Below are positions 1,003-16,401 of a stretch of DNA of 16,870 nt, one piece after another. Numbering within the stretch: the first letter of the stretch is position 1; each line of letters opens with the position of its first letter. The notes under the pieces were generated by a model, which was not told the DNA's origin, did not search any database, and saw only the letters and a program-made list of their open reading frames with translations. Location of the stretch: contig FWCC01000205.1 in NCBI GenBank assembly GCA_900169235.1, positions 1-16,870 of the forward strand. The letters run 5' to 3'. This DNA is from Zarea fungicola (lineage: Eukaryota; Ascomycota; Sordariomycetes; Hypocreales; Cordycipitaceae). The translations under genes and the position numbers were made by a program.

Positions 1003-2166
1003 TCAGTTTCCCAACGATACACCAAGGGCTTTGTATATCATCTTGACATACGCCGCCGTATTGGGGTTACCGAAAGGGAGGTGGCCGGTTTGCATTTTGT
1101 TCATTACGTATGAGAATGACATGCGCCGTTCCGTATCGGCAACGACGATGGAACCACCCCATCCGCTCCAAAAACAAATCTTGCCTTTAGGAAGCACCTC
1201 ATTGAAGGTTGTGTCACCTGCTGTACAGAGCCCATAGCCTATGCCAAACTGTACCGATCTGCCTATAATCACGTCGATACCATGTGCCTGCTCCAGGAAG
1301 ACAAGTTCAATCGTCTCGGGTTTGAGTAGACGCACGCCATCAACCTCACCACCGAGCGCAATGGCCGACATGATTTTCGACAAGGCTCGCGCATTGCTAT
1401 GGCCATTGACAGCGCTCACATCAGCTGCGCGCCAGCCAGGCGTCATCGCGTCGGCGGCATTCCAACCAGGATTCATAATCGTCTTCAAGATCAGCTGCGG
1501 GGTGCCCTCTCGCAAAACCGTCGGCGTGCCCGTTGCCATTGCCAGCACCGCCACTCGGGACCAGTCCTCCTCCTTGACGCCTATTTGAATGTCGACATTT
1601 AATGGTTGTGCAATCTCTTTGGCAATGAATTGATTCATAGTCTTGCCCGTGACGCGAAAAACCAGCTCCCCCAGCAGGTAACCCATAGTCAGAGCGTGGT
1701 AGCCCGACGCAGTACCAGGCTCCCACCAAGGCGCTTGTTCAGCTAGTAGGCTTGCCGCCTTCTCGAAGTCATAGATATCTTGTAGCGCGACAGGCGTTTC
1801 CCAACCGCTCAGGCCAGAGGTATGTGAGAGCAAGTGCCTAACTTTCACATTCTCTTTGCCATTGGCGGCAAACTCGGGCCAGTACTTGGCGACATTTTCA
1901 TTAACGCCAAGGAGGCCACGGTCGACTAGTATGAGGATGGCAAAGGAAATAATAGTCTTTGTGGAAGACCAAATGTTGACGATCGTGTCCTTCTCCCAGG
2001 GCTGACTGCAGTCGGCGGAGGTGTAACCGCCCCAGATATCCACTACATGCCTGCCGTCAATGTTGACTGCAATGGCTGCACCTAGATCGTCCCCAGAGTT
2101 GATACGTTGTTGGAAAAAGCTTCGAAGCTCTGTGAAGCGGTCGGCACTGAAGCCCTTGACTGCCAT
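1003..2166 (-). CDS. Serine beta-lactamase-fold hydrolase/transesterase (class C / EstB / LovD-like)
   Basis: This intact, intronless frame of 387 residues has the length usual for the family. It carries the serine nucleophile motif SSTK at residues 67-70 (S-x-x-K), a tyrosine at 156 in SGYHA where the family's second catalytic motif lies, and FWSGWGGS at 332-339 in the place of the KTG-like motif of the third strand. HLLSHTSGLSGW (111-122) is the classic segment of this fold. No signal peptide is visible, so a cytosolic enzyme is likely. Fungal members include esterases, beta-lactam hydrolases and acyl-transferring enzymes such as LovD, often beside secondary-metabolite genes; the exact substrate cannot be read from sequence. 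The start lies in a good context (CAAA before ATG, G after it). It stands alone, and its nearest intact neighbour is the secreted-protein gene at 3882. Fold and catalytic residues are secure; biological role is open. Confidence 0.93.
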   Translation of the reverse strand: MAVKGFSADRFTELRSFFQQRINSGDDLGAAIAVNIDGRHVVDIWGGYTSADCSQPWEKDTIVNIWSSTKTIISFAILILVDRGLLGVNENVAKYWPEFAANGKENVKVRHLLSHTSGLSGWETPVALQDIYDFEKAASLLAEQAPWWEPGTASGYHALTMGYLLGELVFRVTGKTMNQFIAKEIAQPLNVDIQIGVKEEDWSRVAVLAMATGTPTVLREGTPQLILKTIMNPGWNAADAMTPGWRAADVSAVNGHSNARALSKIMSAIALGGEVDGVRLLKPETIELVFLEQAHGIDVIIGRSVQFGIGYGLCTAGDTTFNEVLPKGKICFWSGWGGSIVVADTERRMSFSYVMNKMQTGHLPFGNPNTAAYVKMIYKALGVSLGN

Positions 2167-3881: not shown

Positions 3882-4325
3882 TTAAAATTTGGTCTTGGTA
3901 AGGTCGCAGTTGAAATCGGGTAGGTGGCCACCAAAGGCGGGATCGTTGTTGAAAGCATCAAAAAGGGCAGACTTGAAAGCCGACAACTGATCCGACGGAG
4001 AATGCTTATCAAGGATAATGCTGAGAAACGCAGTTTTGAAAGGGTCAGGCTGCTTCGTGGTACTGCAGTCCAGGACATCATTGCGATTGATTGGCGGATT
4101 AAAGTGGTTGATGCTGGTTTCGAGGATCAAGTCGGCGCTGATTTTGCCGCAGAGGTTATTGTGTGGGTCGGAAACGCCGTTGATAGTCATACGAAACTCA
4201 TTCCCAATAGTTACTCCAACACCGTCGATCTGGTTCGAAGCGCTGCAGGAAGTGACAATGGCAGCTGCTCGTGCAACTGGGGCAGAAAGCCCGGCCAAGA
4301 GAACTGCGATGCCAGCTTTGTACAT
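3882..4325 (-). CDS. Small secreted four-cysteine protein (effector-like), unknown
   Basis: The 147-residue product starts with a typical signal peptide: M-Y-K, a hydrophobic run through about residue 15, then small residues (VARAAA) suiting cleavage near residue 20-22. The mature part has four cysteines (27, 59, 87, 140), which could form two disulfides, and no membrane segment, so export is expected. I do not recognise the family; size, secretion and even cysteine number fit the broad class of fungal secreted effector candidates but do not prove it. The minus frame is preferred over the overlapping plus frame (3924-4355) because of the signal peptide, a TATA-like run about 145 bases upstream (4469-4477), and a C/A- and C/T-rich leader just before the ATG, as is usual for highly expressed fungal genes. 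No intron is needed. Confidence 0.72.
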   Translation of the reverse strand: MYKAGIAVLLAGLSAPVARAAAIVTSCSASNQIDGVGVTIGNEFRMTINGVSDPHNNLCGKISADLILETSINHFNPPINRNDVLDCSTTKQPDPFKTAFLSIILDKHSPSDQLSAFKSALFDAFNNDPAFGGHLPDFNCDLTKTKF

Positions 4326-8778: not shown

Positions 8779-9796
8779 ATGTCGCTTTCAAAGGAAGAGG
8801 TATCTCGCGTATTGGCGCTTGTCGGTATGCCAGAGGACATGCGCAGCGGATGCGATGACCTCACCTATCTGCGCCGTCTAATGCGTCTGTTTGGGCAAGC
8901 TGTGCCATTTGGCAGCCTCGCATTGCACTATTCGCCTGGCCGCTTCATTTCGCTTAATATGGATGACCTGTTCGAAAAAATAGTCGAGAATGGTCATGGA
9001 GGCTACTGCATGGAGTTGAATAGCTTATTTGCCGCTTTGCTGCAGGCACTAGGGTTCATGACTGTAACCGTTGGAGGACGCGTGGCTAAGGGCCAAGGAC
9101 ACTTTTCCGGACCGTGAGTAGGAACTGAATTTTGATCCAGCTCGAATGGGAAGCGGTTGGACTTATGAGGCGTTCTCATTTCTTAGGACACATATGGCAA
9201 TGATCGTAAAAATTAAGGATGACCGTTATCTTGTTGACGTTGGGTTTGGTCCTTCTGCAGCCTTCCAGCCGATACCCTTGGTCAAGACGTCGCCTGTGAA
9301 TTCCTTCCCAATCATTGGCACCCGCCGGGGGAAGCTGGAATTTACCAGCCTGGACCTGCATACTGACGCCTCCCAGCGGGCGTGGGTGTACTCGACGCAG
9401 CATAACGCAGAGTCAGAATGGACGCAGCAGTATGCCGTGACGGAGCAAGAACTGGCCAAACCAGATTACGAGGTCATGAATCACTTTACGAGCACGCATC
9501 CCACAGCATTCTTTGTGCAAAACGTGTTAATAGTCAAAGTCATCTGCGACAACGTTGAAGTAGACGACTTTGAACCGAAGCAGATCATCACGCTGTTCCG
9601 GGATCGGCTGAGATTTAATACGCCTGGTGTTAGCGAACCCAAGATCGTAGTACTAGCGAGTGAAGAGGAACGTGTGGCCGTTATCAAGGAGCAGTTTGGT
9701 ATCACATTGACTAGGCGGGAGAGAGAGAGCATTGAGGGCCATGAGAGTGCTATTGCGCCACAAAGGTCGACTGATGCTATTATCAGTAGGCCATAA
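8779..9796 (+). CDS. Arylamine N-acetyltransferase (NAT family), two exons
   Basis: Exons are 8779-9113 and 9187-9796, joined across a 73-base intron with GTGAGT donor and TTAG acceptor, giving 314 residues, a usual NAT length. The family transfers an acyl group (acetyl, or malonyl in some Fusarium enzymes) from CoA to arylamines through a Cys-His-Asp triad. All three residues are present: C77 in HGGYCMELN, H114 in PTHMA, which spans the splice junction and supports it, and D129 in LVDVGFGP. VPFGSLALHYS (42-52) is the family's N-terminal signature in altered form. Two departures from the usual pattern are visible: His73 where RGGYC normally has Arg, and Gly-Ser where VPFEN is normal. A pyrimidine-rich leader precedes the chosen ATG; the upstream extension of the frame lacks NAT-like sequence. 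The enzyme is probably cytosolic. Fungal NATs include FDB2-type enzymes that detoxify plant benzoxazolinone products; the substrate here is unknown. Confidence 0.93.
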
Positions 9797-10491
9797 CCCT
9801 GATTGACAACTAGAAAAATCAAATAAGTCACGTATTTGAAACCTCTTCCTCCAGTGTTCACTGTCGCATTTTCGGCAACTAAAGCAGCGATTGCTACATT
9901 ACCTAGTCATGATGCGTTACAGGGTATTAGTGGGTAAGAGAGGTTTGTCGATATTGCAATCCGTGTCAGGTCCTTGAGTTTAAGATAGCCAGCGTCAAAT
10001 AGTTTTAAGAAAGTGATTGTAATGATAAGATAGTGCACTGCTCGGTGAAATGCCCATCTCGGCAATGAAACAATAAAATACATTACTATCTTAAGAGCGA
10101 ACATAAGTCAAATGAGAAGGACTCATTGGGATACATTTCGCCTGTTAGGTTCCGAACTAAGCAAGCAAGTCCCAAACTTTTACCAACCAGTTACTGACAA
10201 CCTGGGGCTCTTTCATGGCTGCGAGCTCATCCATCTCATTCTTACCAGAGGCACAACTGATATCAGAATAATCACAAAGTGGCTCGCATGTGGTTGTAGT
10301 GACCGCCCCTATGGCTAGGCGTCCAGCGTGTTGTTATGAATCATGGCGGAGCAGCCCCAAGTGTAGGCTTTTTGGCAGAGTTTAGAAATACCGGAGCTAC
10401 GCTATTCTTTAACACCAGCATATGTACGGTTGAGCATCTTGAGAATGGTCAATCCAACCGATCAATTCATTCGATGCCAAGTCGTGCGAGT

Positions 10492-10524
10492 ATCGAATCG
10501 AATAGGTAGTCTGTTCGATTCGAT
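10492..10524. repeat. Inverted repeat (11-base arms, 11-base loop)
   Basis: ATCGAATCGAA (10492-10502) is followed by its exact reverse complement at 10514-10524. Further GATTCG units occur just downstream (to about 10557), so this may be a small simple-sequence patch rather than a functional hairpin. Confidence 0.6.
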
Positions 10525-12436
10525 TCAATGTGGGTTCGGTTCGCATGATTCGCATGATGTCCAACCCTGAGCTGCTGCTGCATACGCTTCTTTACATGCT
10601 TGCTGTGCTTGTTGTTAGCGCCGTGGTAGAGAGCGATAGATGCTCGCGTAGTGCGAGATATCAGCCCGCCCCACGGCTTCGTACTCCTCTTGTGTCTGAG
10701 TCTGCATCTGTTCCAGGCCACTCTCGCTCCTCTCGTCTGAGCCCAGACTGAGTTCCACGGGAGTCCGCCGTGAGAACGAACCGCGACGAGATGTTTTTAT
10801 GTGAGACAGTACAAACTTACCTCAGCCTAATATGGGCAGCGTATCTGCCACGATATAAGGGGCCATGCGCGGCAGGTCGAGTATCCCGGTACAGCTAAAT
10901 ATGTTTGCACGAGGAGGCTCAGTTCACTTTACTAGAAGCCCTTGTCATCATCTTCTCTATAGAGAAGAAAGTACCAGCCGCAATCTTTGGCTGTATCTAC
11001 CTTACCAATGCTGACTGTGGGACTCTAGTAGTGACGCCTAAACAACAACGCCTAGTTGCGCGAGCCTGCACATGGATAAGTAAAATCTCCATATAACCCT
11101 CCAGAATGCACGGTTTTAGCTGGCTGCAGGCAATATTGTAGATGGCAAACTGTCTAAATAGCCATAGGTCTGCTTTACAAGCAGATACAACTTTTATTTT
11201 TCCAACTTAGTCTCTACCTATACGTCGTCAACATACAGCCCAGGGAGTACTAAGTGGTGTGACGAGAAATGGGTACTCGGACGAGTGTATTGGGTCAATC
11301 AGCGCAACGAAAGCATGATTCGTATGCTAGGAAGTGGTTGAATTAAGCTAGAGCCACTTTTCGGATAAAAAGGATCTTCCATCATCCGCATTCTCTTCGA
11401 CAATCTCGCATTAGACTGGGTATCTTTGCAACACCCTCAAGTCTTGCAAACAGATAGAACAACTTGCATAGATCCTGGGAAGGCCTATTGAATTGTTGAC
11501 TATTAACAGCTCCTTTCCACGATTCAGTGTTTCAACCACTCTCACCGGTAAATATCACGCTTCGTGTCAGACCGCCTTGTGATTATTAATTATACGTGTG
11601 GGCGATACAACCGATTCTTTTTGATAGTTAGACACATGTAACCGTACGTCAGCATAAGCGCTAATGTCGTCATTTAGACCATTGGTGGCTTAGGAGCGAT
11701 TTGGAATCGCTACAACTACGGAGTGCTCAGGTTTAATAAGGCTGCCCTCGAACAGCCAAAGCTCACTGTCGTGTCATACCGTTAGCGCTGAGATTGAGGC
11801 TGGGTGCGAATACGATGCGACTAACCCACATCAGATAGATAATGTCTTGGCGAATGGGAACTCCAGTAAATTGCCCATGCATTTAATATCGGAAACGTAA
11901 ATTCTCGCTCTAATTTTAACAGATGTCGGAGCAACTCTGACTCGCGGTGTCTTGTATGGTGCTCGGCCGAAGCTAATAAAAAAGCTTCTGATGGAGAGCT
12001 ACGCCAAAATTAGCTCAAAATAAATAAAAAAAAATTTCTTCTTCTTTGAACAATCCTTCAAGAGCAAGCCAGAATTAATAGGCAAGTGTCACGTAGTGCA
12101 GATATATTTCATAAGTTTCTGATGCAGTTGATTGGTTGAGAAACAGCGCTACGAAGGCGTGCGCCGAGGGCCACGTCAGGGGCAGGCCCTGCGCAATCCG
12201 TTTAATAAAGTCCTATTTACGTGGTTAACCTGCGAAATGTATGCTCTGCCCGAGCCGCCCCCATGGTGTCAATAACCAAGCCCCGGCCAATATGAAACAG
12301 TCCAGACCGTGGCGAGTAATGTAACTACGCCCTACAATGAGTAATAATAAGTAACCACCAAAAATGGTTAATGCACCACTACAATCGCCTAATCTTGAGC
12401 TGATGTGGAGTATAAGCGATTTACTGGGTATAACAT

Positions 12437-12503
12437 TTGTTTCTCATGATAGAGAACTTTTTGTAAAATGGGGCTTGTTTCTCATGATAGCGAACTTTTT
12501 GTA
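12437..12503 (+). repeat. Pair of 29-base direct repeats
   Basis: A 29-base sequence beginning TTGTTTCTCATGATAG occurs at 12437-12465 and again at 12475-12503 with a single A/C difference, the starts 38 bases apart. No coding frame runs through it. It could be a local duplication or paired binding sites. Confidence 0.7.
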
Positions 12504-13229
12504 TTACTGATCAGGCAACTAAGCTGGTAGGCCTGTCACCACTAATTAGCAAGGATTTAGCCCCTGTCTCCTTTGCAGGTTATATCTAAAGGAGGACCAA
12601 CAGGTCTGACACAAGCTAAAACTTACTAAACAATTTATAGCATAAACTCCACTTGAGTGAGAATGTTCAGCCAGCATATAGCCGATTTTATATTCCGCCC
12701 TGATGCCGACGGCGCCGACTGAAATCTGTGGGCCGGCTAACCAGGGAGGACGATCCCATGGACCGGCTCGTGGAGAATCATTTATCTGGAAGAAGCTAGT
12801 AATTGCGAGTCTGCGCCTTACTGCAGACTAAGGAAAAGGAAGCGTTCCTTTCGGACCCAGTCAGGTCGCGCCGTTAATCCTGCCCGACCGCCGACAGTTC
12901 CCACTGTTAATTCAGCTCATCAGCTGCTGAAGGGGCTCACGGCAATTTGTAAGACATACTGCGTAACTACACAGCGCCGCCACTCGTTCACTCACAAGCG
13001 CATGCAGACTGGTACCTCTGATACAGGGATATAGCAAGAGTAAGCCATCAACCCTTGCTACTTTGTGCAAGTAATGTATTTTATTTTGGAGCCACTTTCT
13101 CTGCCGCGTACCATGTTTGGCTTCAAGCTCTAATCAGGGTCTTTCCTGTATCTACTTCAAGCGCGCAAAGTTTCGTTCGGGAGCTACGAGCTACGGAAAA
13201 CGAACATATTATCATTTGACACTATTGAC

Positions 13230-14351
13230 ATGACGAATGCCCAACTCTCCAGCCCCAAGGCCACGCTCGAGGCATATGACTCCAGCGTTACAACTCTGGA
13301 ACGAACTACTGCAGCTATTGACAGCAAATCAAAGAGACGAGAGCAGAATAAAATTGCTCAGCGAAAATATCGTTAGTATCAGATTTAAAGAGCAGTCGTG
13401 ACTTGGGTCTAACTCTTATTTGAAGGACAAAGGACAGCCTTACAAGCGCGGCAGGTGCAGCGTCTCGCACATTTCGCTGAGAGAGTGCTGAGTTCTGGCT
13501 TGAATCTAGAAAATATCGGTGATTGGGAAAGTTGCCAACCGTCGCGAGTTACTGATCAAGAGGATATACGGCATAGGGAGACCAGAAATGTGCCACCCTC
13601 GACAACCGATTCCCTTCGTTCAACGATGCCAGTCCTTCTCGCTGGGGAGAACTACTTGTTCTCCGACTATGATCCTGCATTGTTAAGCTCAACGACCGTG
13701 GACACTGTCGCGCGTACCATGGGAATGGGCACGATCTTAACAGAGACAGCATCAACTCCAGCGACGCTGTCACCATCGGCATTATCAATACCCTCGCTTT
13801 CTAATGACAGCTCCAAGCCGGATGCAGAGGCAGGTCTGTCTACAGATGATGCCACACCTCTTTTAAACAACAGGGCACATGAGCTTCGCAGCGGTCATAA
13901 TTTGCCTAACAGCTCATCAACTCTCTCCCAACATGCCTGTTCCACGGAGATGACAGGGATTTCGGCCAACTGCTATGATATGTTCGATGATCCTGTCCAC
14001 AATGATATCGCTGCACCTGTAGCTCTGGACGTAGTTGCACGAGAGGATTCATGTGCTCGCTCAGCCCAGCTAGTCGCAGCGCTTCATCGCGCTACGGCAA
14101 AGGGCCAAAGTAGTATCATCACCATTCTTCTGGAGAACGGTGTTCATGTTGATGCGCGCGATGACTCTGGGAAGACACCATTAATCATATCTGCTGAAAA
14201 TGGCAACGTTGCGTCAATGGAGGCGCTACTGGCGTATGGCGCCGACCCGTGCGCAACAGATTCAGCAGGTGTGAGCGCTATTCTGGCGGCTATAGAAGCA
14301 AAACAAGAAGCAGCGGTCCGCCTTTTAGTCAAGAAGCTGTGTGAGACTTAG
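13230..14351 (+). CDS. bANK transcription factor (bZIP-type basic region plus ankyrin repeats, TOXE-like)
   Basis: Two exons, 13230-13371 and 13426-14351, flank a 54-base intron (GTTAGT donor, CTAAC branch-like site, AAG acceptor); the product is 355 residues. Residues 35-50 form a fungal bZIP basic region: N40, A43, Q44, R45 and R48 match the N-x2-AQR-x2-R pattern. No clear leucine heptad follows, as in the bANK class. Residues about 262-351 hold roughly three ankyrin repeats, with signature segments GKTPLIISAENGN and LLAYGADP. The middle is low-complexity and Ser/Thr-rich. TOXE, regulator of HC-toxin genes, has this same architecture, with four ankyrin repeats. This protein therefore probably acts in the nucleus as local activator of the neighbouring precursor and UstYa genes. 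It converges on the precursor gene (169 bases apart). The splice is required: without it the basic region ends at a stop. Confidence 0.9.
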
Positions 14352-14520
14352 TTTACACGTTCTGTTTTAACATCAAAATTAAGTGATGTATATGTATCGA
14401 AACTAGCGCCTGACTGATCTAGAAAGATTATTCTGCGTACCGCAGCCATGGTGATTCCATACATCAGGAACCTAAGTTGCCGAATAGTACTCTAACGAGG
14501 CTTGTCTTGAAAAGCTTGTT

Positions 14521-14802
14521 TTACCAAGGAATTCCTCCCCGGTTGTTCTCCTCCTTGCGCTTGTAAATGTCGTCGTCCTCGCGCTTCCAGGGGATTCCTC
14601 CTCGGTTGTTCTCCTCCTTACGCTTGTAAATGTCGTCGTCCTCACGCTTCCAGGGGATTCCTCCTCGGTTGTTCTCCTCCTTGCGCTCGTAGAGCTGAGA
14701 GTTGCCGGCATCAACTCCCACGGTCACGCCATTGCTGGCTTGGAGAGGTGCAGCGATTGTCGCTGCCACGGTGACAGCTAAAAGTCCAACAGAAAGACGC
14801 AT
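14521..14802 (-). CDS. KEX2-processed repeat precursor of a UstYa-type RiPP
   Basis: The 93-residue product begins with a signal peptide (hydrophobic residues about 5-18; cleavage plausible after 18 or 22), then an 18-residue spacer, then repeats bounded by Lys-Arg. An 11-residue segment, KEENNRGGIPW, occurs three times (41-51, 62-72, 83-93), separated twice by KR-EDDDIY-KR. The last copy ends exactly at Trp93 and the stop, so after KEX2 cutting and removal of Lys-Arg all copies would share a free C-terminal Trp. Secreted precursors with KR-separated repeats beside a UstYa gene define dikaritin-like fungal RiPPs. Which part becomes the product (the GGIPW end, the DDDIY segment with its Tyr, or both) cannot be settled from sequence. 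It is transcribed divergently from the UstYa gene. Without that neighbour it would be called only a KEX2-processed repeat protein. I do not recognise the core from any named product. Confidence 0.85.
   Translation of the reverse strand: MRLSVGLLAVTVAATIAAPLQASNGVTVGVDAGNSQLYERKEENNRGGIPWKREDDDIYKRKEENNRGGIPWKREDDDIYKRKEENNRGGIPW
14524..14682 (-). repeat. 63-base in-frame tandem repeat encoding the precursor segments
   Basis: Two full units (14524-14586 and 14587-14649) and a partial third (14650-14682) are present. The full units differ at five of 63 positions, and every difference is a silent third-base change (Pro, Ile, Arg and two further Arg codons). The partial unit's 33 bases equal those of the middle unit. 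Confidence 0.95.
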
Positions 14803-15245
14803 GTTTAATGTTTGAGCGTTTAATTTATGAAATGTTTAAAAATGCAAAGCAAGATTTTGTATTGGGTGAGAAATTTGTTATCTTGGTGTCATCTTCTCAG
14901 CCGTAAGGGCATCCCGCTAGCTTAAGTACTGAAGCTAAATTAAGAGCATTTCCGAGGCCGGCCATTGGTTAGCATCTTGTTCACCAAATGAACTAATGAT
15001 CCTGGTGGTGAGCAATTTGTTCACCTAATGGCCACATAATCAGCTGCAGGCCAACATCATCCGTATATTGTGTTGGATGGCTCTGATGACGTGAGCATTC
15101 TCCATCGCTTCAGCACTCTCAGCAACCCACATACCGTAGCGTAACGACCAGACATAATAGATGAATTCCAGCATCATAGAAGCCAACACACAAACGAAGA
15201 ACTGCCGCAGTTTGATATTAGAACAGTTGCTTGGAATTGGTGACT
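14803..15245. promoter_or_regulatory. Divergent promoter between precursor and UstYa genes
   Basis: This 443-base gap separates two genes transcribed away from each other and should serve both. It contains a CCAAT box read toward the precursor (14964-14968), a TGACGTGA bZIP-type site (15087-15094) and four related TCACC/GGTGA elements listed separately. No clean TATA box stands out; T/A-rich runs near 14822-14845 are the best candidates for the precursor side. The published TOXE target (tox-box, ATCTCNCGNA) was not found. Confidence 0.6.
14865..15025. promoter_or_regulatory. Four related TTG-Y-TCACC-type elements
   Basis: TTGTTCACC occurs at 14977-14985 and 15017-15025, exactly 40 bases apart inside a 20-base block matching at 17 positions. 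A reverse copy, GGTGAGCAA, lies between them at 15007-15015. A fourth copy, GGTGAGAAA at 14865-14873, shares a 15-base block with the 15007 copy (14 of 15 matching). The clustering in one divergent promoter suggests a binding site for a local regulator. Confidence 0.45.
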
Positions 15246-16401
15246 ATGATGGACTCTCGCAGTAGCATCGAATCAGAAGAAGGTATTGGCTCTCAGCTGT
15301 TGGCGTCCACAAAAGTGGAAGGTTCAGCTTTGAGCAGGCGTAGGTCAAGACCTGCATCGTTTTGGTTGGGCATATTACCATGGGCACTCTCTGCACTGCT
15401 TTTTTGTCTCAACATTTTCACCATCACGCGGCCGGCGAAATGCTACTGGCATGCGAATGAGCTAGGTTCGTAGCCTTTGGCCGCCCCAGTACAATGACTC
15501 AACTGACAACGACAGAAATTGCCCGAAAAGAGCTCTTACCAAATCATGTTAGAACGCGATTTACTGGGGGTTTGAGATACAATTCCAGTAAGGCCCTGAT
15601 ACGGCAGATAGAGCCGGGCCAGCCAGACTATGTTGGCTTTCCAACTCCAGAAATCGATGCAGCGTGGCATAAATTGATCTCCAGTATGTGATCTAGTTGC
15701 GTTGAGCTTTCGATCATTCCTAACGCTTTGCGTGACTTTATAGCGACTGATATATATCTTACTGAGGACGAGATGCGAGAAAATGTGCGAAACGACGGTA
15801 CTTTTGCGGACTTGCCGGAAGGTGATAGACTGTATACAGACCCCTTTAGCGGTTTGTACCAAGGAGTGTGCGTGCATAATTTCATTCCCCTTCCTCGCTA
15901 TACTGAGATTCTCTTGAGCTGCTTCAACTAACGCTTTATGTCCAGCCCATCTGTATTTCATGACCTTCACTGTTTGGTGGGTAAATGTCTGGTGCTGCAG
16001 GAGTCGTCCTCCACTGACTATGCATAGAACAAAATCCGTCGCGCAATTTACATCGACCACTACCCACAAGATTTAAACGACATATATTGGCCGCATATAC
16101 GTAAGATAAACCTTAATAACGGTCCGAATGTGAAATTTGGCGTCTAACATGTCCAGAACACTGTCTTGATACAATTCGCCAAAGCCTTATGTGTACAGGA
16201 GACCTTACACCTATACCGGAAGCTTTCACCCCTTACAAGCCAGATGGATCTCTGGAGCCCATTTTCCAAGTCTTTCACAGCTGTCGGGATTATGAGGCTA
16301 TTCAAAGATGGGCCAAGACGCGCGATGCTCTTGACGAGGACGTTTGGCGATCGAACGCTGAGAGGCTCAAGCCTGGTTCAACGAAGTCAGGGCATGCATA
16401 G
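15246..16401 (+). CDS. UstYa-family (DUF3328) oxidase, six exons
   Basis: Exons are 15246-15465, 15516-15683, 15744-15867, 15946-15976, 16028-16100 and 16157-16401. The introns (50, 60, 78, 51 and 56 bases) have GTTCGT, GTATGT, GTGCGT, GTGGGT and GTAAGA donors, AG acceptors and CTAAC or CTGAC branch sites. The 861-base coding sequence gives 286 residues. A single membrane segment lies at about 40-60, with the rest presumably lumenal. Family landmarks follow in order: FTGGLRY (89-95), YVGFPTPEIDAAW (112-124), LTEDE (135-139), HDLHC (176-180) and HIQHC (204-208), the paired HxxHC motifs thought to bind copper; then LDTIRQSLMCTGD. The second HxxHC is created only by splicing intron 5, strong support for the model. 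UstYa proteins cyclise or oxidise ribosomal peptides in the secretory pathway. The neighbouring precursor is the obvious substrate. ATG at 15249 is an alternative start. Confidence 0.9.

Follow-up and report, generated by a model that had tools for sequence, protein, structure and literature searches.

A candidate UstYa-type RiPP locus with a basic-region/ankyrin protein gene in Zarea fungicola

UstYa oxidase genes are frequent neighbours of the genes for fungal KEX2-processed repeat proteins (KEPs). In a 2020 survey, a UstYa gene was among the 15 nearest genes in 1758 of 7878 KEPs, and UstYa gene counts peaked directly next to the KEP genes; UstYa neighbours were hardly ever seen for annotated alpha-mating factors and for the pheromones of Ascomycota (PMC7329392). 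A separate group of proteins combines a bZIP-type basic region, which has no leucine zipper, with ankyrin repeats at the C-terminus (bANK). ToxE, Aps2/Apf2 and FGM4 are bANK regulators with named targets, all of them nonribosomal peptide synthetase (NRPS) clusters, for HC-toxin, apicidins and fusaoctaxin A (PMC4109984, PMC6389888), and Bap1 of Cladosporium fulvum is cited as a further bANK gene (PMC4109984). Here we describe positions 13230-16401 of Zarea fungicola contig FWCC01000205.1, where a bANK gene (+), a repeat precursor gene (-) and a UstYa gene (+) follow one another. The window of this analysis is the complete contig of 16870 bases (C312), from a genome of 43.1 Mb in 456 contigs.

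We consider it likely, with a probability of roughly two in three, that this is a locus for a ribosomally synthesized and post-translationally modified peptide (RiPP), in which a KEP and a UstYa oxidase yield a cross-linked peptide from a segment ending in GGIPW under the control of the bANK protein. An initial annotation of the window had reported three intact adjacent genes, and gene models and Pfam matches bear this out at the same coordinates. The bANK and precursor genes lie tail to tail with 169 bp between their ends, and the precursor and oxidase genes are divergent neighbours, 443 bp apart. The features of the locus are listed below (KR, Lys-Arg; ER, Glu-Arg).

13230-14351 (exons 13230-13371 and 13426-14351), + strand: bANK-type protein of 355 residues, probable cluster regulator (gene model, Pfam)
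14521-14802, - strand: precursor of 93 residues, one exon, probably secreted KEP
14650-14682, - strand: core segment copy 1, KEENNRGGIPW, ER before and KR after
14626-14643, - strand: presumed spacer 1, EDDDIY, KR-flanked
14587-14619, - strand: core segment copy 2, KEENNRGGIPW, KR at both sides
14563-14580, - strand: presumed spacer 2, EDDDIY, KR-flanked
14524-14556, - strand: core segment copy 3, KEENNRGGIPW, KR before and stop codon directly after
14803-15245, no strand: divergent promoter region common to precursor and oxidase, 443 bp (gene models)
15087-15094, + strand: Api-box TGACGTGA, identical to the published motif of the bANK regulator Apf2 (PMC4109984), the only exact copy in the cluster
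15246-16401, + strand: UstYa-family oxidase of 286 residues, six exons, open throughout, with five GT..AG introns placed by eye

The precursor consists of a hydrophobic start, a leader and three copies of KEENNRGGIPW with KR-EDDDIY-KR between the copies. Its N-terminus reaches a 12-residue mean hydropathy of 2.36, judged by hydropathy only. At the DNA level the repeat unit measures 63 nt (2.7 copies, 93% matches and a score of 294 in Tandem Repeats Finder), and three copies are counted. Three identical 11-residue segments with KR between them agree with the published description of KEP repeats (PMC7329392), with ER in front of copy 1. The initial annotation had described three identical KR-bounded segments; the amino-acid identity holds, whereas KR stands at both ends of copy 2 alone. 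ER is a poor Kex2 site. The N-terminus of copy 1 may therefore differ, which points to the C-terminal part of the segment as the product. Once KR is trimmed off, copies 1 and 2 would have the C-terminus that copy 3 has already. The same annotation had left open whether the product derives from GGIPW, DDDIY or both. We favour GGIPW, because it is present in three copies and a stop codon follows exactly after its Trp. EDDDIY is not an equal candidate and is more probably a spacer, because it has two copies, is acidic and is comparable to the spacers of another KEP of this genome (C230, see below).

Between the last two 63-nt units there are 5 nucleotide differences, all of them synonymous transitions. 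At transition biases of 2, 4 and 8 (200000 trials each), random substitution preserved the protein in 0.04, 0.07 and 0.12% of cases, and substitution by transitions only did so in 0.2% (probability 0.002). The exclusively synonymous changes therefore argue for selection on the precursor peptide, as far as one pair of units can indicate it. Copies 1 and 2 show no nucleotide difference in their 33-nt cores. Among 1188 candidates from 5.8 billion proteins, no relative of the precursor was found at E <= 1; small precursors are often unannotated, which makes this weak evidence of absence. In its own genome the precursor matched only itself, and a search for GGIPW as text in the open-licence PubMed Central (PMC) literature gave no paper. 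The absence of a relative in the protein search and of the text in the literature agrees with the earlier statement that no named product with these cores was known to the annotator. A Pfam match of the precursor to RDM3_C was dropped, as its 19.6 bits lie below the 35-bit cut-off.

The oxidase belongs to PF11807 (124 bits, cut-off 25). It contains two HxxHC motifs, HDLHC at residues 176-180 and HIQHC at 204-208, and a single hydrophobic stretch at residues 39-58. Together with the repeat precursor, these features support the class of RiPP locus, precursor plus UstYa oxidase, that had first been assigned. Five relatives were found among 2637 candidates: the nearest in Zarea fungicola (Cordycipitaceae, NQ176_g1258, 91%), then one in Trichoderma evansii (68%), a 178-residue fragment (73% over half the length), and entries from Talaromyces atroroseus (47%) and Sphaceloma murrayae (37%). 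Four of these relatives retain both HxxHC motifs. In the alignment the corresponding stretch is missing from the fifth, that of Talaromyces (P0004), which we take as a probable gene-model error. Among solved structures there was no UstYa relative at E <= 1, and NCBIfam gave no match for the protein at 0.1. The structure predicted for the 91% Zarea relative (P0001) from a five-sequence alignment was unusable, with a mean pLDDT (predicted local distance difference test) of 40.4.

Similar pairs occur elsewhere in the genome. PF11807 matches 55 exons, grouped by eye into 35 places including that of the window. A repeat scan covered 25 of the 34 other UstYa places, mostly with about 1.5 to 2 kb of either flank, and gave at least five KEPs (on C230, C167, C157, C360 and C163), the one on C167 only with looser scan settings; matches read in wrong frames were left out of the count. 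All five have a divergent UstYa partner. Because of these five further pairs and the 1758 of the survey, the pairing of KEP and UstYa is ordinary in this genome and common in fungi. The KEP of C230 (L072; C230:153435-154139, - strand) contains seven near-identical long repeats, TVKQNGDILYNNGAGWG and variants, and lies between UstYa genes. Some of its junctions have short acidic spacers (SEDEE, SEDDTEY, SEESEE), others have none. The KEP of C163 (L079; C163:54867-55199, + strand) is made of NPDYIAYGA-KR-AENAAA units, is divergent from its UstYa gene and extends past the stretch examined, and the KEPs at L063, L068 and L073 (C157, C360 and C167) have the repeats HKYSVSAKEADA, SSVYKSYMADRSVPEE and EFLNILDKKDEDDKWSTTGNAERNV beside UstYa genes. 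A repeat scan of 29 loci chosen for ankyrin matches, some of them overlapping, gave one weak two-repeat match (L038).

The bANK protein contains ankyrin repeats at residues 267-351 (PF12796, E 1.8e-12; four other ankyrin models also exceed their cut-offs) and an N-terminal basic region, SKRREQNKIAQRKYRQR, recognised by eye. Its bZIP_1 match covers only residues 33-52 and stays below the cut-off (17 of 27.6 bits); DUF6284, a candidate for the N-terminus, was dropped for the same reason (16.3 of 27.4 bits). In the protein search 76 of 7994 scored candidates passed: the window's own piece (P0006), a 79% relative in a public contig (P0007) and 74 matches covering 12-32% of the query, which we take to reflect ankyrin similarity alone. 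Within the genome, 102 of 103 matches fall within residues 229-354, and the remaining one is the gene itself. When the other loci examined were scanned for a motif of this kind, no further bANK-like basic region emerged. In the open-licence PMC literature, in the parts of the articles consulted, no report of a bANK-type regulator for a RiPP cluster was found, and those co-mentions of ankyrin with ustiloxin or UstYa that were examined as possible precedents proved unrelated. The initial annotation had called the three-gene layout with a TOXE-like regulator unusual. This does not apply to the KEP/UstYa pair, but a bANK gene beside RiPP genes is the real oddity of the locus. Both the peptide and its association with a regulator of this type appear to be new.

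A possible link between the regulator and the pair lies in the divergent promoter. In the apicidin F cluster, TGACGTGA is described as enriched in the cluster promoters; bidirectional promoters have a single copy, the promoter of the regulator itself has none, and mutation of the motif lowered the product 100-fold (PMC4109984). The arrangement here is alike: one copy stands in the bidirectional promoter, and the 530 bp preceding the bANK gene (12700-13229) contain none that is exact. The chance expectation for TGACGTGA in 443 bp is 0.012 when based on window shuffles (0.46 per 16870 bases) and 0.021 when based on the 9 copies in 192243 bases of other loci. The motif is absent from all five of the other KEP/UstYa intergenic stretches of the genome.

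We propose that the precursor would enter the secretory pathway, where the Kex2 protease would presumably cleave it at KR and a carboxypeptidase would trim the ends. This would release three copies of one peptide ending in -RGGIPW, with the acidic EDDDIY spacers between them. The UstYa oxidase, probably membrane-anchored, would then most likely join side chains in the released peptide, the likeliest partners being the C-terminal Trp and the nearby Ile, to give a product with possible biological activity. The one TGACGTGA in the common promoter would most likely allow the bANK protein to activate both genes, precursor and oxidase, jointly.

Several observations speak against this proposal. Copy 1 has no KR in front, and the core contains no Tyr, the only Tyr of the repeat being in the presumed spacer. 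The sequence Y-x-I, and with it the YXIX core motif reported for ustiloxin and phomopsin (PMC7329392), is absent from all 93 residues of the precursor. Because this Tyr-x-Ile-x core is missing, the term dikaritin-like in the initial annotation holds in the wide sense of UstYa RiPPs but not in the narrow one. Trp has a frequency of 20.5% in the repeats of UstYa-linked KEPs, not above the 24.5% in those of other KEPs (PMC7329392), and the protein search gives no support, weak as that evidence is, for conservation of the precursor across species. The Api-box was one of two published motifs, tried after the locus had been seen; it resembles a CREB site (PMC4109984) and is not enriched over the whole window (2 matches, equalled by 17 of 200 shuffles). 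Nor is the other motif, the Tox-box (15 matches at <=1 mismatch, 12.2 expected, 46 of 200 shuffles reaching 15). On C182, two copies of TGACGTGA in opposite orientation (C182:58827 and 58899; L006/L075) are upstream of the UstYa gene that is the best-scoring paralogue of the window's oxidase (40%), with no bANK gene seen nearby. Finally, the compact three-gene layout claimed at first is not claimable as complete, because the contig ends 469 bp past the oxidase gene. As a separate observation on C182, two neighbouring open reading frames (ORFs) contain HxxHC-like pairs (HIVHC/HTDHC and HVTHC/HFKHC) and have no Pfam match at 0.01.

It is a serious possibility, at somewhat less than even odds, that the locus is the edge of a larger cluster with more enzymes past the contig end and a product modified beyond the cross-link, which would be compatible with our proposal. 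The nearby contig end is in line with this, as are the ustiloxin and phomopsin clusters, which have 2 and 5 UstYa genes, respectively, plus tyrosinase (PMC7329392) and encode peptidases (PMC9233826). On the other hand, one UstYa is enough for asperipin (PMC7329392), and the opposite flank of the locus (9797-13229) comprises 3.4 kb without an ATG-started ORF of >= 90 residues in the ORF list, followed by unrelated-looking neighbours, an arylamine acetyltransferase and a beta-lactamase-fold protein (Pfam).

We think it rather unlikely that the bANK gene is an unrelated neighbour that does not control the precursor and oxidase. Such a view can point to the single short motif and to the named bANK targets, which are NRPS clusters (PMC4109984, PMC6389888). 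Against it stand the 169 bp between the ends of the bANK and precursor genes, the Api-box in the promoter common to precursor and oxidase, and the uniqueness of the basic region among the loci scanned. A wider and doubtful extension of the proposed regulation is that bANK proteins are general switches for short secreted fungal peptides, NRPS-made or ribosomal, acting through the Api-box, and that one was recruited here to a RiPP with a new Trp-terminated, UstYa-cross-linked core.

It is improbable that the peptide is a linear, pheromone-like KEP signal and that the UstYa protein acts elsewhere or not at all. The segment ends in Trp, like many alpha-pheromones of filamentous fungi. The ascomycete alpha-pheromone repeat, however, contains Cys and ends in GQPCW, while the 93-residue precursor has no Cys and hence no such ending, and the oxidase gene is intact, with counterparts in relatives. 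A genome-wide search for 15-mers coding for GQPCW gave 14 matches versus 7 for the reversed control, which allows no conclusion, and none with Lys-Arg behind; the search thus yielded no separate mating pheromone gene. This leaves some room for a linear signal, as does the finding that, of 76 KEPs similar to putative pheromones of Basidiomycota, 17 have a UstYa gene nearby (PMC7329392).

There is also little to recommend EDDDIY, or both segments, as the modified core with Tyr joined to Ile by the oxidase: both residues are present, a YXIX core of four residues makes shortness no objection (PMC7329392), cross-links through Tyr are described for ustiloxin, phomopsin, asperipin and epichloecyclin (PMC9233826) and Tyr occurs in 65.6% of the repeats of UstYa-linked KEPs (PMC7329392), but EDDDIY has two copies versus three of the GGIPW segment, is acidic like the C230 spacers, is missing from the end of the last repeat unit and has its Tyr directly after Ile, unlike YXIX.

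As a KEP/UstYa pair alone, the locus joins well over a thousand others on record. What it contributes is an intact orphan RiPP locus whose product has a predictable mass: the [M+H]+ of RGGIPW is predicted at 685.378 in linear form and 683.362 with one cross-link, and that of EENNRGGIPW at 1171.549 and 1169.533, respectively. With one cross-link, the predicted values for NNRGGIPW, KEENNRGGIPW and EDDDIY are 911.448, 1297.628 and 767.273, a cross-link lowering every one of these masses by 2.016. If the regulator link is true, it would join two fields, since the named bANK targets described so far in the cited sources are nonribosomal peptide clusters, and the Api-box could serve as a motif for finding silent RiPP clusters.

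Elsewhere in the window, the arylamine N-acetyltransferase (8779-9796, + strand) consists of two ORF pieces apparently joined by an intron, and the beta-lactamase-fold protein occupies 1003-2166 (- strand), both by Pfam. A 147-residue ORF at 3882-4325 (- strand) has a signal-peptide-like start followed by four Cys and no Pfam match at 0.01. The repeat at 42-111 has seven other genome sites, several about 0.5 kb from contig ends (e.g. C309, C266, C382), and is perhaps a transposon end or a subtelomeric element. An Rfam search of the window gave no match at gathering score.

The locus resembles those of ustiloxin, phomopsin, asperipin-2a, victorin and epichloecyclin in its KR-cut repeat precursor and in the neighbouring UstYa protein with two HxxHC motifs. 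Unlike in these RiPPs, the core ends in Pro-Trp and lacks Tyr and YXIX, and a bANK gene is the neighbour; the tyrosinase, peptidase and second UstYa of such clusters are not seen in the contig sequence available up to 469 bp past the oxidase. Victorin is the closest in presumed chemistry, with a cross-link between the aromatic residue at its C-terminus and an aliphatic residue inside the peptide (PMC9233826), but, likened by description, it has Phe in place of Trp and a different core. The C230 locus of the same genome also combines UstYa, there on both sides, with a KEP that has Trp near the repeat end (NNGAGWG) and acidic KR-bounded spacers; it differs in its unrelated repeat sequence, its seven copies and the absence of a bANK-like basic region from the stretch examined. 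On the side of the regulator, the bANK protein shares with ToxE, Aps2/Apf2 and FGM4 the ankyrin repeats, a basic region (here putative) and the position adjoining a small-peptide cluster. The number of ankyrin repeats, compared by description, is four in ToxE and Aps2/Apf2, three as predicted in FGM4 and about three here. The clusters of those regulators make nonribosomal peptides, whereas the target here would be ribosomal. As in the Apf2 system, the Api-box TGACGTGA is located in a promoter common to two genes.

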